A stretch of 64,000 nt of DNA, taken from positions 1 through 64,000 of the forward strand of contig NZ_CP124747.1 of NCBI RefSeq assembly GCF_041860085.1, in the 5' to 3' direction. Each line of letters begins with the position of its first letter. The first letter of the stretch is position 1. Made by a program: the position numbers and the translations under genes. This stretch comes from Schlesneria sp. DSM 10557. Its GTDB lineage: Bacteria; Planctomycetota; Planctomycetia; Planctomycetales; Planctomycetaceae. Shown piece by piece: positions 3,609 to 11,210 of this stretch. The notes beneath the pieces are model-generated. The model searched no databases and was not told the DNA's origin. It saw nothing but the letters and a program-made list of their open reading frames with translations.

Positions 3609-4238
3609 TTAATCACGTGATTTATGGTGGTCTTTGAGATAGGTGTCGCGGATTTTGTGGAGTTCTTTCCAGATTTTGGCTTTTCTGGTTTGTGGTGAGA
3701 CGCAGGCGAACAGGTAGTTGCGCTCGCCACTGGTCCACGTTTGGATTTCGAGATTCAGCGTCTGGGGAGCGCGGGTGGCGAATGGTTCGACCCAGGTGAG
3801 TTTGCCCTGGTAGAGGTGTGTGCCAGACGGAAAGGATCCGTCCTGGTTCTTGTTGGCGTCCTGCTCCTCTTTCTCGAGGTCGAACGTGAACTTTTCCGGA
3901 TCGACGTCCGGGCGTGCGCCATTCAGAACGGCGGTGCACAGGCCGCGGTAATACTTCAGAAACTCGTCCTTGATCAGGTCGTCCTTCAGTTCCGGCGTCT
4001 TCTCGAGTTCGAATACGAACGCGTATGTAAAAAAGGTGTCCGAGGAGGCCTTCATCATGCCCGGAGCGAATCGGATGTGCTCATCCCCTTGGAGGGCCAT
4101 GTCGGGAGCGAAGCCGGGCGGGAGGGAAATCGTTTCGCCACCCCAGGAGTCCGGTGCAACCAGTTTGAACTCGGCCGATTCATCGGCAGCCAGCCATGTT
4201 CCGACCAGGACAATACTGAGCGCCAGGTAACGCAGCAT
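3609..4238 (-). CDS. secreted hypothetical protein
   Basis: The 209-residue protein starts with a Sec signal peptide (MLRYLALSIVLVGTWLAADES, cleavage near residue 18-22). The mature part contains WGGETISLPPGFAPDM and FAPGMMKASSDTFFTYAFVF, then a charged Asp/Glu/Lys stretch and beta-rich blocks (THLYQGKLTWVEPF, QTLNLEIQTW). It ends RDTYLKDHHKSRD. I do not recognise the family; the form is that of a small periplasmic or surface protein with one domain. The ribosome-binding site GAGGAG stands just upstream of the ATG at 4238. It is transcribed alone on the minus strand. Confidence 0.7.
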   Translation of the reverse strand: MLRYLALSIVLVGTWLAADESAEFKLVAPDSWGGETISLPPGFAPDMALQGDEHIRFAPGMMKASSDTFFTYAFVFELEKTPELKDDLIKDEFLKYYRGLCTAVLNGARPDVDPEKFTFDLEKEEQDANKNQDGSFPSGTHLYQGKLTWVEPFATRAPQTLNLEIQTWTSGERNYLFACVSPQTRKAKIWKELHKIRDTYLKDHHKSRD

Positions 4239-4406
4239 GGAAGACTCCTCGGGACGGGTTCGATCTCATCGACTCAGCGTGAGAATACGTGATCCCGGAT
4301 CTCATGTCATGTGCCGACTCGTTGCGGGAAGCACTACCCTCAAAGTGGGTCAGAAGGATTTTGTCCTTGGTGCTGCATTTTCCGGAGATGCGTCATTGAG
4401 GCGCAG

Positions 4407-5174
4407 TTATTCATTTAGCCCGTTCGAAAGCTCGGTCAGGTCGTGATAACCGATGATCTGGACGACATCCGAGAGTTCGTTGTTCAGGCGACGTAACTGG
4501 CCGAGGCTGACGCGACGTGCGTGATCATCATCTGCGCGAGCGGCAGCCAGTACAGAGACGGGGTGGTCGTCGGTGGTAAGTTCTGCACGCAGGTAGTATG
4601 CGTCACCCGCGTGGAGCATCCACTGCTTGTCCTGCCTGATCGCGACACCACAGTGGCCGGCAGTGTGGCCGAAGAGGGGGACCAGCAGGACCTCGCTCGA
4701 AAAACCGAGAGGAACGGATCGAGCAGAGAGCCCCCACCAGTCGTACTGGCTCTGCGAGATCGTTTGCCAGCGGGGAGAGTGTGCGAATTGAGTTGGGATA
4801 TACCGGAGTGACCCTGATTGCACATTCGCCAGCTCTTCTTCCGCGAGATGCACGGTGGCATGCGGAAAATCAGCAAGGCCCCCCGCATGGTCCGGGTCAC
4901 AATGCGTCAGAATAATGTGACGCACATCGTTGGGCGAGAACCCAAGTTTCTCCATGCGCCGCACTGCGGTGTCATGTTCGTTGAACTGAAATCCCGCCAT
5001 TTCGATCAACGGCTGGCCAAGTCGTTCGAGCGGACTTTGAACGTCGAGCAGTCCGATGCCCGTGTCAACCAGAGCCAGTCCGCGCGGGTCTTCCAGTAAC
5101 AGGCAGTGACAGACGACGGTCGGATAGTTGGGGACGAGGAGTGTTCCGCAATTGAGATGGTGAATTCGGATCAT
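4407..5174 (-). CDS. metallo-beta-lactamase-fold hydrolase (lactonase-like)
   Basis: The protein has the metallo-beta-lactamase fold. The zinc motif HxxxDH is in HIILTHCDPDHAGG, where the usual first His of HxHxDH is followed by Cys and Asp. Later ligands are in FGHTAGHCGVAI and HAGDAYYL. The N-terminus MIRIHHLNCGTLLVP matches proteins often annotated as N-acyl-homoserine-lactonase-like, which favours ATG 5174 over the GTG at 5183. The length of 255 residues is usual. Substrate cannot be told: lactones, glyoxalase-type thioesters and others share this fold. It lies directly after the Y1 transposase gene on the same strand. Confidence 0.85.
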   Translation of the reverse strand: MIRIHHLNCGTLLVPNYPTVVCHCLLLEDPRGLALVDTGIGLLDVQSPLERLGQPLIEMAGFQFNEHDTAVRRMEKLGFSPNDVRHIILTHCDPDHAGGLADFPHATVHLAEEELANVQSGSLRYIPTQFAHSPRWQTISQSQYDWWGLSARSVPLGFSSEVLLVPLFGHTAGHCGVAIRQDKQWMLHAGDAYYLRAELTTDDHPVSVLAAARADDDHARRVSLGQLRRLNNELSDVVQIIGYHDLTELSNGLNE

Positions 5175-5179
5175 CTGAC

Positions 5180-5914
5180 TCACTCAAAAGATGTTGTATA
5201 TGGCGCGAACTGGAAAAGGGGTCGGGTCTTTTTCTTTGGCCGTCCTCTTGGCCGTGTCGTAATTTCTGGCCGGGTCGTAGTTTCGAGACCAAGTCGAACG
5301 GCACTGCTTCTGGTCCAATTGTCATCACCAAAAGGCAAGCCGCGTTTGACACTGCGTCGAAGTGAATTCAGTTCTGCTTCAGTCTCAATCTTGTTCACCC
5401 AAGAACGCCAGTTTCGCGGCAACGCGGGATCATCGGGAATGGCCAGCCAACGGCGTTTGTCAGCATGATTTAGGCGAGCATACGCGGAACTCCATTGCCA
5501 GTCTTCTGCGAGTTCAATGAAATTTGCACGAACCGGGTTCCGCTCGACGTACCGCATGGCAGTTAGCAAGTGGCCGTCAGTCTGAATTGGAAACGATTTG
5601 AAACGTCCCTGATACAGACGCCCGGTGCCACTCGTCTTGTAGTGAGCGTGCCAACGCATGTTGTGCATCACTGTGAGGCGACGGAAAAACTCACTCACCT
5701 GATCGCTGGTTTCGGGCCGCACCACAAAGTGCCAGTGATTGGGCATTGCCACCATCGCATAAATCGGCAGAAGGACGATTTCCCACGTTTCTCCCACGAC
5801 ACGCATGAACGCAGCATAGTCTTTCGGCTTTTCACAAATCCTGAGCCGAGCCACTGCTCGATTCAGAACGTGGAAGACTCCACCTGCCGGACACATGTGT
5901 TTCGCGCGTGCCAT
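5180..5914 (-). CDS. REP-associated tyrosine transposase (RayT), Y1 family
   Basis: This is a single-copy IS200-like Y1 transposase of the RayT group, thought to act on palindromic REP sequences rather than on its own IS ends. The HUH motif is HWH in MVAMPNHWHFVVRPE, and the catalytic Tyr is in AMRYVERNPVRANF. A start at ATG 5914 (MARAKHMCPAGGVFHVLNRA) matches the family N-terminus. A longer frame to 6001 runs through the upstream palindrome and is unlikely. Inverted copies of one sequence bracket the gene, at 5213-5240 (inside the last codons, giving GRPKKKTRPLFQF) and at 5939-5967. This is the expected layout for a RayT with its cognate repeats. Confidence 0.9.
   Translation of the reverse strand: MARAKHMCPAGGVFHVLNRAVARLRICEKPKDYAAFMRVVGETWEIVLLPIYAMVAMPNHWHFVVRPETSDQVSEFFRRLTVMHNMRWHAHYKTSGTGRLYQGRFKSFPIQTDGHLLTAMRYVERNPVRANFIELAEDWQWSSAYARLNHADKRRWLAIPDDPALPRNWRSWVNKIETEAELNSLRRSVKRGLPFGDDNWTRSSAVRLGLETTTRPEITTRPRGRPKKKTRPLFQFAPYTTSFE
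5213..5240 (+). repeat. RayT-flanking repeat, copy 1
   Basis: It begins GAAAAGGGGTCGGGTCT and ends TTTCTTTGGC. It is the inverted partner of the copy at 5939-5967 and overlaps the 3' end of the RayT gene. Copies differ at one base (G/A in GGGTC[AG]GG) and by one indel. Confidence 0.85.
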
Positions 5915-5938
5915 CACAAAGGTCCAACAACGTGCGAC

Positions 5939-5967
5939 GCCAAAGAAAAGAGACCTGACCCCTTTTC
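5939..5967 (-). repeat. RayT-flanking repeat, copy 2 (inverted)
   Basis: Read on the minus strand it begins GAAAAGGGGTCAGGTCT and ends TTTCTTTGGC, matching copy 1 in opposite orientation. It lies about 25 bp upstream of the RayT start. Confidence 0.85.
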
Positions 5968-6096
5968 TTTTCGACCTGCTCTTTGAGTAACGCAACATCA
6001 TCCATGATGCAGAAAATTTACCGAATCCCGGCAGCTTGAGAAGCCCAAAATGGCTTAACAGTTACCGTCGAACAGCACATAATCGCGCACAGGGAA

Positions 6097-8706: not shown

Positions 8707-8756
8707 TTTGGAGAATCCTCAGTGGTGAGTGGCTGGAGGCAGCCCATGGGGACACA

Positions 8757-9247
8757 GTGCGCCGGCGCAAGCCCGAGGAAGGTAGCGAATGCAAGTTTCG
8801 TACAAGGTAAGATTTAGCCAATCGCCTTGTCCCCGAGTGATGCGTTGTGTCGGGCAACCGGCAGAGCGAAGGGTTCATAGGGGAAAGTCCAGGCTGTGTA
8901 TTGAGTTCCGAGTTCACAACTTTGCGAAGGCCGACCCTGTTGTGTCAAGGGGAAGGCAATTGTGATGATATCGAACACTAATGGCGAGTCCGATTCGACC
9001 AGCACGGAGTCCCAGACCATACGCATGGACGGAAACTTTCCTCACGGAAGGCGGGAGATCCCGGGTACATCCATTTCCTCGGAAACGGATCGGTCGGAAA
9101 AGGCGCGATGCCACAATGCCGACATGCACGTGCCCGGGAAGTCAGACAGTTTCGCTCGTCTTTATCCACGGTAAGAGCCGTATGCGGTAGTGCCGCACGT
9201 ACGGATCTGTGCGGGGGGCGGTTAGCAATGACCGTACCTACCGCGAT
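8757..9247 (+). ncRNA. group II intron remnant lacking the reverse-transcriptase ORF
   Basis: The 3' part carries a recognisable domain V at 9175-9207: GAGCCGTA (with the AGC triad) opposite TACGGATC, a CG bulge on the 3' side, and a distal stem ATGCGG/CCGCA-type closing a degenerate loop. A domain VI-like stem follows (GGGGGCGGTT/GACCGTACCTACC), with a likely 3' end CTACCGCGAT near 9247. The 5' end fits the GUGYG rule (GTGCGCC at 8757), followed by domain I-like short stems. Between them is only a 70-codon frame (8962-9174), where full introns encode an RT/maturase. The exact ends are inferred. Confidence 0.7.
8962..9174 (+). pseudogene. N-terminal remnant of intron-encoded protein
   Basis: A 70-codon frame inside the intron contains SEKARCHNADMHVPGKSDSF followed by a proline/arginine end. 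It resembles the N-terminal leader that precedes the RT domains in some bacterial intron-encoded proteins (pattern 'DMHxxGKSDxxxxP'). It ends immediately before domain V, so all RT, maturase and endonuclease parts are deleted. Resemblance is from memory of the family and was not aligned. Confidence 0.45.
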
Positions 9248-9341
9248 GCGGATTCTTTTGACAATTGCTACACAAGATCAAGAGCCTTGAAGTCGTTGGA
9301 GTGAATCGCTCGGGTTTTGCGTTGGAATCGGAGGCGATTAC

Positions 9342-10472
9342 ATGGCTCGCTTAGCGCGTGCGGAGGTGTTTTCTCCAGATGAAGTCGCGATCGTGCATGT
9401 GATGAACCGGGTTGTGCGACGGTGCTTTCTTCTGGGGACCGATTCTCTCACCGGCAAGAACTATGACCACCGGAAGGGATGGATTGAAGGTCTACTCAAG
9501 CGATACGCCGCCTGCGTTGGGATCGATCTGCTCGGCTTTGCGATTCTTTCGAACCACTTTCACCTGATCCTGCGGTCTCGGCCGGATGTGGTGGCGACCT
9601 GGAGTGATGAAGAAGTTGCTCGTCGGTGGTTGCTCCTGTGTCCGATCCGGAAGGATGAGTGCGGGAACCCTCTAGAGCCGAATCAGGCCGAATTGGATTT
9701 CATTCAGAACGATGCCCGCAAGCGGGAACTTATCCGCTTGCGGTTGTCAGACATCGGCTGGTGGATGCGATTGTTGTGTCAGACGGTAGCGATGCGCGCT
9801 AACCACGAAGATCAGGAGATCGGCCGATTTTGGCAAAGCCGTTTTCGGGCGGTGCGGTTACTGGATGAAGCTGCTCTGGTCGCGTGTGCCGCCTACGTCG
9901 AATTGAACCCGATTCGTGCGGCGATGGCCGACCGGCTGGAGACCAGCGACTACACCTCTGTGCAGCGCCGGCTTCAGGCTCAACAACCTCGGTCGGCCTC
10001 ACGAGAGACCACCAAACCGAGCGATGCCTCAACAGCGGAGAAGAATCAATCCCGCTGTTCGGCCAGCAAGTCCGACGACACGACAAAAAAGCACCAGTCG
10101 TCAGTCGATCAATTTCTGGCGCCGTTGTCCCTTAAAGATCGGGATGGCAAGACAGGTCCGGTTGCAAGCCGTACAGGAGCCCGCTGCAGTGACAAAGGCT
10201 TTTTGCCGATGACACAGGAGGATTACCTGCGGTTACTCCGCTGGACCGCAAAGCAGCTTCCCCGCAAACAGGGGGCCCGGACATCACCTCAACTCAAAGA
10301 AGTTCTGGGCAAGCTGGATCTGAACACCAACACGTGGCTGTCTCTGGTCAGAAAGTTCGGCAAACTGTTCTACAACGTCGCCGGTCGGCCGCAGACAATC
10401 GAGCTGACGCGTAGCTGCATCGGCCAGCACCGACACTACGTCCGCCGCGAAACACGCGAAGTTTTCTCCTGA
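9342..10472 (+). CDS. Y1-type (RayT-like) transposase, long variant
   Basis: The 376-residue protein belongs to the Y1/IS200-like superfamily but is distinct from the one at 5180. The HUH motif is HFH in FAILSNHFHLILRSRP, and the catalytic Tyr is probably that in CAAYVELNPIRAAM. Between them is an extra stretch of about 60 residues (CPIRKDECGNPLEPNQAELD and on to GRFWQSRFRAVRLL) not found in the short RayT. A C-terminal extension of about 150 residues is Ser/Thr/Lys-rich, then structured (LRLLRWTAKQLPRKQ...WLSLVRKFGKLF). No inverted copies tightly bracket the gene, but a palindrome-rich stretch follows it. Confidence 0.85.
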   Translation: MARLARAEVFSPDEVAIVHVMNRVVRRCFLLGTDSLTGKNYDHRKGWIEGLLKRYAACVGIDLLGFAILSNHFHLILRSRPDVVATWSDEEVARRWLLLCPIRKDECGNPLEPNQAELDFIQNDARKRELIRLRLSDIGWWMRLLCQTVAMRANHEDQEIGRFWQSRFRAVRLLDEAALVACAAYVELNPIRAAMADRLETSDYTSVQRRLQAQQPRSASRETTKPSDASTAEKNQSRCSASKSDDTTKKHQSSVDQFLAPLSLKDRDGKTGPVASRTGARCSDKGFLPMTQEDYLRLLRWTAKQLPRKQGARTSPQLKEVLGKLDLNTNTWLSLVRKFGKLFYNVAGRPQTIELTRSCIGQHRHYVRRETREVFS

Positions 10473-10920: not shown

Positions 10921-11003
10921 GGCCCTTCAGGCCTGGTGATGTTTCGTCGAATCACATCCCAGCCCGATGGGCTGGGCTATGGGAATGGATGGCCCTTTGG
11001 GCC
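10921..11003. repeat. three short hairpins in a row (REP-like)
   Basis: GGCCCTTCAGGCC (10921-10933), CCAGCCCGATGGGCTGG (10959-10975) and GGCCCTTTGGGCC (10991-11003) each form a tight hairpin. They directly precede the 19-bp tandem array and resemble REP-type units. Confidence 0.65.
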
Positions 11004-11115
11004 GGATGTGGACATGGGGGCCGGATGTGGACATGGGGGCCGGATGTGGACATGGGGGCTGGATGTGGACACGGGGGCTGGATGTGGACACGGGGGCTGG
11101 AACACAGCACGGGGG
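11002..11115 (+). repeat. 19-bp tandem repeat, about six copies
   Basis: CCGGATGTGGACATGGGGG occurs three times without change (11002-11058), followed by two copies of CTGGATGTGGACACGGGGG (11059-11096) and a diverged copy (11097-11115). Decayed half-copies continue to about 11140. The 19-bp period shifts the reading frame each time, which argues against coding use. Confidence 0.9.
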
Positions 11116-11210
11116 CTGTGGCAGTACGGGGGCTGGAGCACAGTCTACTCTGTTGCGCTCAAAGCGCTTCAGCGTTTGATTCTGATGCCTGAAAGGCATC
11201 CACAAGCCAG

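Follow-up and report, generated by a model that had tools for sequence, protein, structure and literature searches.

What kind of element lies in front of a transposase gene of Schlesneria sp. DSM 10557, at positions 8757–9247 (plus strand) of a contig end of 64 000 nucleotides (the whole stretch analysed, hereafter the window), and can it still act as a ribozyme? It had been proposed in an earlier note, from the letters alone, that these 491 nt are a group II intron that has lost its reverse transcriptase (RT).

The Rfam/Infernal search suggested in that note gave three matches at the gathering threshold in the 64-kb window: a tRNA, RF02005 and RF00029. The last two are both on the plus strand and in the order expected of one group II intron. 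RF02005 (group-II-D1D4-6) covers the ribozyme 5′ half at 8792–9019 (119.6 bits, E 2.5e-33, cut-off 49, model positions 1–225 of 225), and RF00029 (Intron_gpII) matches 9173–9247 (46.5 bits, E 5.6e-06, cut-off 40). Consensus pairs place domain V at 9174–9208, with the AGC triad at 9176–9178, so that the hairpin first noticed at 9175–9207 is indeed domain V. The stem behind it, suspected to be domain VI, is placed by the same pairs at 9210–9245; it carries a branch-point-like bulged A at 9240, eight nucleotides from the intron 3′ end. Domain V with its triad is thus followed by domain VI, and the 5′ domains are found upstream of them, in order. A circularly permuted or split intron was also considered, as many relatives show one half only; for the window it is ruled out by the normal order of the Rfam matches. 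The halves in L072, L080, L073, L074, L133 and L134 end at contig ends or runs of N, and other half-copies are truncated within their contigs.

The consensus ends of group II introns are GTGYG…AY. The element begins with GTGCGCC at 8757 and finishes with …CTACCGCGAT at 9247, so that GTGCG (8757) and AT (9246–9247) are both present. Both ends had been proposed correctly to the base: relatives begin and stop at the same positions. When 8757–9247 was used for a DNA search of 15 genomes of the genus, the family was present in nine of them; many matches start at query base 1 and others stop exactly at query base 491, and no match besides the window itself spans the whole intron. The intact ribozyme domains are not accompanied by an RT gene, as in ORF-less bacterial group II introns: the only coding remnant is an open reading frame of 70 codons (8962–9174, plus strand), already pointed out from the letters, which has no Pfam match. 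The RT-less group II intron at 8757–9247 is real and well supported, and belongs to a kind of element already known. Two of its traits are mildly unusual: no cognate RT was found in the genome, and the intron is seated in the end of a transposase element.

The gene downstream (9342–10472, plus strand, 376 codons) codes for a RAYT-like transposase. Its product matches NF047646 with an E value of 7.6e-09, at 35.6 bits under the cut-off of 80 and over residues 151–200 only; it has no Pfam match up to E 10 and 0 matches among solved structures. It contains NHFHLIL and YVELNPIRA, which we take to be motifs of RAYT-type transposases. Five further 5′-intact paralogues of this gene, 84–90% identical in protein, were read in the same genome. 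Upstream of four of them (L040, L169, L166 and L167) there is GGGACACAGCAT, followed by a TTGACA box, and these four have the empty site GGGACACA-GCAT; the fifth, L168, carries an internal deletion and is without the empty site. The window reads GGGGACACA, then the 491 nt, then GCGGATTCTTTTGACAATTGC. Comparison with the empty sites therefore places the intron between GGGGACACA and GC in the element end, with the 5′ exon ending in GGGGACACA at 8748–8756. The 3′ exon (9248–9341) is the upstream region of the transposase gene, including the TTGACA box, and is shared with the four paralogues.

Behind the gene, at about 250 bp, a similar sequence is found in inverted orientation in three of the five paralogues, for which reason GGGACAC(A/T)GCAT may be a terminal repeat of the host element. 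No inverted right end beyond chance was found in the window. The sequence GGGACACA occurs once in the window where 2.18 occurrences are expected, so it is no abundant repeat there; GGGACACAGCATATT occurs twice in the genome, both times at transposase paralogues. A second RAYT-type transposase gene is encoded in the window at 5180–6001 on the minus strand (PF01797 Y1_Tnp, 33.9 bits, cut-off 23), and a short tandem array of TGGACATGGGGGCCGGATG-like units with a spacing of 19 nt is present at 10971–11122.

At a fixed place in the 5′ half of the ribozyme, the exon-binding site EBS1 (TGTGTC, 8941–8946) pairs at six of six positions with the intron-binding site IBS1 (GACACA, 8751–8756). To follow this pairing over the family, copies beginning at profile positions 1–5 and reaching position 205 were taken; EBS1 could be read in 35 of 36, giving 27 distinct pairs. 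Over these, 108 of 162 positions are Watson–Crick; in 20 000 shuffles of the partners the mean was 64.9 and the highest value 88. Complete pairing is found in seven of the 27 (shuffled mean 0.86, maximum 6), and five or more positions are paired in 13. The partners change together, as in CCTGAC–GTCAGG, CCAGTC–GACTGG, CCTGTC–GACAGG, CTTATC–GATAAG and, in a Rhizobium plasmid, CAACTG–CAGTTG. Copies with poor pairing (L080, L082, L092, L093 and others) were left in the count. The first L081 hit, which was mis-anchored, and L113, whose 5′ end was mis-set, were also kept and count against pairing; the second L081 hit gave no EBS1. Inspection by eye of EBS3–IBS3 gave no clear pattern.

A REP palindrome was considered as a general homing site and rejected. 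Among the joined flanks of 10 copies, only those of L077 form a clear inverted repeat; in the other nine the inverted repeat does not go beyond shuffles, and in two of these nine (L076 and L158) the 3′ flank is another intron copy. The L077 copy (4346–5031, minus strand), also RT-less, interrupts a perfect inverted repeat (24-bp arms, 10-nt loop; GGGTGTGGATCAGGGGACAGGTCC) at a point three bases short of the left arm's end. TCCC or TCCCC follows several 3′ halves (L131 on the minus strand, L133, L136, L132, L146, L137 and the plus-strand copy of L076), and GGGGACNNN stands at the end of the 5′ exon in many copies. The two sequences might jointly constitute a hairpin-like homing site, although the halves are read at different loci.

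The origin of the short reading frame was traced by comparison with a full-length relative, L158 (JAKFVC010000057.1, from the metagenome-assembled genome Planctomycetaceae bacterium D1_Bin_8). This copy, at 3631–5549, is 1919 nt long and consists of the 5′ domains, an RT gene of 545 codons (3839–5476) and domains V–VI, followed by the start of another copy. Its RT scores 346.2 bits with TIGR04416 (group II RT/maturase, cut-off 300) and is also matched by PF00078; the maturase-domain model PF08388 stays below cut-off (14.5 against 23). In a BLASTP comparison, the 70-codon frame of the window aligns with residues 1–62 of this RT at 38 of 62 identical positions, and its last seven residues, FARLYPR, correspond to FARQHPR at the RT C-terminus (E 0.46 for this segment taken alone). 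As the N-terminal stretch mostly overlaps ribozyme sequence, it may owe its conservation to the RNA. The L158 intron is 1428 nt longer than that of the window, and TCG (9152–9154) is common to both sides of the deletion junction in the remaining domain IV stump (9150–9159). Since the frame resembles the first 62 codons of the L158 RT joined to its last seven, the internal deletion postulated in the earlier note is supported: it would have taken place in domain IV, in the window copy or in its parent, and removed the RT/maturase.

The junction is private to this copy. With up to two mismatches allowed, only that of the window contains its pattern among 170 genomes in the family (variants with other spacing would escape such a pattern), and as an exact match it is absent from viral contigs. 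Other copies without an RT have different leftovers. In the same genus, L075, L076, L077 and L087 keep both ends, with about 190–207 nt between the profiles and an RT N-terminal remnant; in L112, from another genus, about 270 nt separate the profiles and there is no RT match. Because these leftovers differ from that of the window, RT loss has probably happened more than once in the lineage.

To estimate how well the RNA core has been kept, the 5′ half was aligned over 17 sequences. There are 102 consensus pairs, and 59 of them have at least one change on both sides somewhere in the alignment. The window breaks four of the 102 pairs, all of them its own, where about 26 would be expected from random change; in domains V–VI it breaks one pair of 28, in domain VI. 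The corresponding numbers out of 102 are three in L158, two in L072, L074 and L077, four in L075 and L079, none in L076, eight in L080 and L087, five in L083, 12 in L085 and L127, 14 in L086 and L128, and 15 in L091 and L112. The high values of L127 and L128, which are distant and RT-bearing, are in part due to gaps against the consensus. When the observed paired-site differences of 13 relatives were placed at random, on average 24–44 pairs were broken, and never fewer than 14. The 491 nt by themselves are more stable than shuffled sequences (z −2.57, none of 100 as good). The pair counts show past selection on the ribozyme, the share of it that followed RT loss being inseparable by such counts. 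L079, which showed no domain V at the expected position, likewise breaks only four pairs, so that a low count is not confined to copies with both ends, and the preservation of the core may date from before the RT was lost.

Domain V was compared over 22 domain V–VI sequences, a selection from those collected. The strand facing the triad is GGATC in all 22, so that the G of AGC faces an A where the Rfam consensus has U. By consensus pairing, the tip loop of domain V is not of the GNRA type in the window, nor in the RT-bearing L158, L127, L128 and L113. The earlier note had read this loop as a hint that the intron may be dead; the loop is indeed non-GNRA, but as RT-bearing relatives share it, it is a trait of the lineage and no sign of decay.

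Whether the intron could be served by an RT encoded elsewhere was examined in the genome assembly (one contig of 7 067 087 bases, 99.78% complete). RF02005 is matched nowhere else in these 7.07 Mb, and a DNA search with the intron gives no second copy, the only other matches being to the flank at two of the transposase paralogues. With the L158 RT as query, the window's own remnant is recovered (61% identity); the best-scoring RTs are 36–37% identical, and one fragment reaches 42% over 84 residues. With no second copy and RTs this dissimilar, no cognate maturase is found in the assembled genome (an unassembled plasmid would be outside this scope). The search for full-length copies elsewhere in the genome was therefore negative, and splicing with a maturase from another copy, as originally imagined, finds no partner here. 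Domain V is matched at 12 further places in the genome, and an RT or an RT fragment lies near every one of them. These introns were considered as parents and rejected, none of the 12 matching the window's intron in the DNA search. Seven of the loci were searched against Rfam with wide flanks: L034, L035, L036, L037 and L041 carry RF02001 and RF01998, L032 has RF00029 only, and L038 nothing at the gathering threshold.

Taken together, the data very probably describe a group II intron that was inserted in the end of a RAYT-like element, its EBS1 paired to GACACA, and from which a deletion in domain IV removed the RT/maturase. The intron would have arrived by retrohoming into the element end (GGGGACACA^GC), UGUGUC of EBS1 pairing with GACACA at insertion. 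The internal deletion would then have left a compact ribozyme made of the 5′ domains, a domain IV stump and domains V and VI, presumably unable to move by itself. If a transcript from upstream crosses the intron, it could be spliced out at 8756/9248, joining GGGGACACA to GCGG, alone or with a foreign maturase; we give about even odds that the RNA splices in vitro in one of these ways. The TTGACA box 3′ of the intron is conserved in the four paralogues and is likely to be the promoter of the transposase gene, so splicing is probably not needed for the downstream gene. The upstream reading frame, of 208 codons and without a Pfam match, runs the opposite way. With the TTGACA box on one side and this frame on the other, transcription of the intron is probably rare, and its neighbour probably takes no harm from it.

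The same intron may of course be a fossil whose ribozyme splices no longer and which decays as intergenic DNA, and to this we assign a probability only a little short of one half. No cognate maturase was found in the genome, and since the upstream reading frame is oppositely oriented and the transposase promoter is probably on the 3′ side of the intron, splicing is unlikely to be under selection; moreover, the junction is seen in no other genome of the 170. The state of the RNA argues the other way: four of 102 and one of 28 broken pairs are far below random change, EBS1 and IBS1 pair at all six positions, and the GTGCG start, the AGC triad, the bulged A and the AT end have all been kept. That the intron is instead still mobile, or spliced in trans by the unrelated group II RTs of this genome, appears improbable. 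A dozen other domain V introns with an RT or fragment nearby would offer helpers, and two of the intron types are present as several copies with identical scores, a pattern known from recently mobile introns; however, the RTs are only 36–37% identical over the best-scoring stretch (42% over 84 residues for one fragment), the five loci noted above carry other ribozyme families, and the window's copy is single. An unrelated repeat or a chance hairpin, with no group II intron at all, has no observation in its favour and a negligible probability in view of two independent Rfam matches in the correct order, empty insertion sites in the same genome, and an EBS1–IBS1 pairing that covaries, together with compensatory changes in the pairs.

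According to the cited passages of Zimmerly and Semper (2015, PMC4424553), ORF-less introns are rare in bacteria and nearly always accompanied by a related RT, C.te.I1 of Clostridium tetani being the sole exception then known. Like the window copy, C.te.I1 is a bacterial group II intron that lacks an ORF and has no cognate RT in its genome; it self-splices (PMC3919590), and has a shifted 5′ splice site and splices both in vivo and in vitro (PMC3919590, PMC4424553). The window copy differs in its canonical GTGCG start, in an RT deletion that can be traced, in the other group II RTs of its genome, and in being known from sequence alone. The deletion itself has a counterpart in the work of Mohr et al. 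(2010, PMC2882425) on ORF-less introns, which retain pieces of the RT at its two ends and are mobilised in trans. As reported in the passages cited from that work, the TeI3 introns of Thermosynechococcus elongatus have lost about 1.5 kb of the ORF from domain IV, with N- and C-terminal remnants, and have good EBS/IBS pairing, as has the window copy; their 17 copies share one deletion, and related RTs encoded in that genome mobilise them in trans, whereas the window has a single copy whose junction is private, and the search of its genome gave no related RT. For the nested position, the nearest likeness is with Pseudomonas putida KT2440, where group II introns lie inside REP/RAYT-linked sequences, two of nine being in REPs (Tobes and Pareja 2006, PMC1525189, in the part cited). 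Those copies are in scattered REPs; the site in the window is the end of the RAYT-like transposase element itself.

Among the matches listed in a literature search, the window's intron is not described, judging by the titles and abstract openings of open-licence papers. It is conceivable, if rather doubtful, that it represents, after C.te.I1, a second natural case of a bacterial group II ribozyme still able to splice with no cognate maturase in the genome, one whose 5′ end is canonical and whose RT deletion can be traced, in a lineage homing to the ends of RAYT-like elements with an EBS1 adjusted to them. An intron from which the RT has been cleanly deleted, in a genome that yielded no such RT, offers a compact natural test of maturase-free splicing in bacterial group II introns, and its nested site illustrates mobile elements serving as each other's landing places.

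RF02005 was matched in 20 of the 59 relatives searched (the window's genome included), over cut-off in 18. The intron 5′-end pattern was found in 12 stretches of the genome collection, nine from Schlesneria and the others from a Planctomycetota bacterium, Planctomicrobium piriforme and a Planctomycetaceae bacterium. Besides L158, full RTs are carried by L113 (same family) and by two rhizobial plasmids, L127 (Bradyrhizobium elkanii) and L128 (Rhizobium leguminosarum). In all four, the 5′ half and domains V–VI match the window's profile, with the GGATC strand in domain V and the non-GNRA loop, and L158 and L128 share the six of six EBS1–IBS1 pairing; they differ from the window in the domain IV RT of about 490–545 residues that it has lost.

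Some further arrangements were seen among the relatives. At L158:5550–5628 and L076:1–141 (minus strand), the 3′ end of one intron copy is joined directly to the start of a second, as though one homing site had received two insertions. Many copies in genus mates (L073, L078–L111) retain their 5′ end and break off upstream of domain V, at positions that vary; incomplete reverse transcription would be expected to do the opposite and truncate the 5′ side. Some of these breaks are artefacts of contig ends or runs of N, others are not. At G004:C162:145752–146322, about 100 bp, including CAAAAGGACCTGTCCCCTTTT, separate a 3′ intron fragment from a RAYT gene on the opposite strand.
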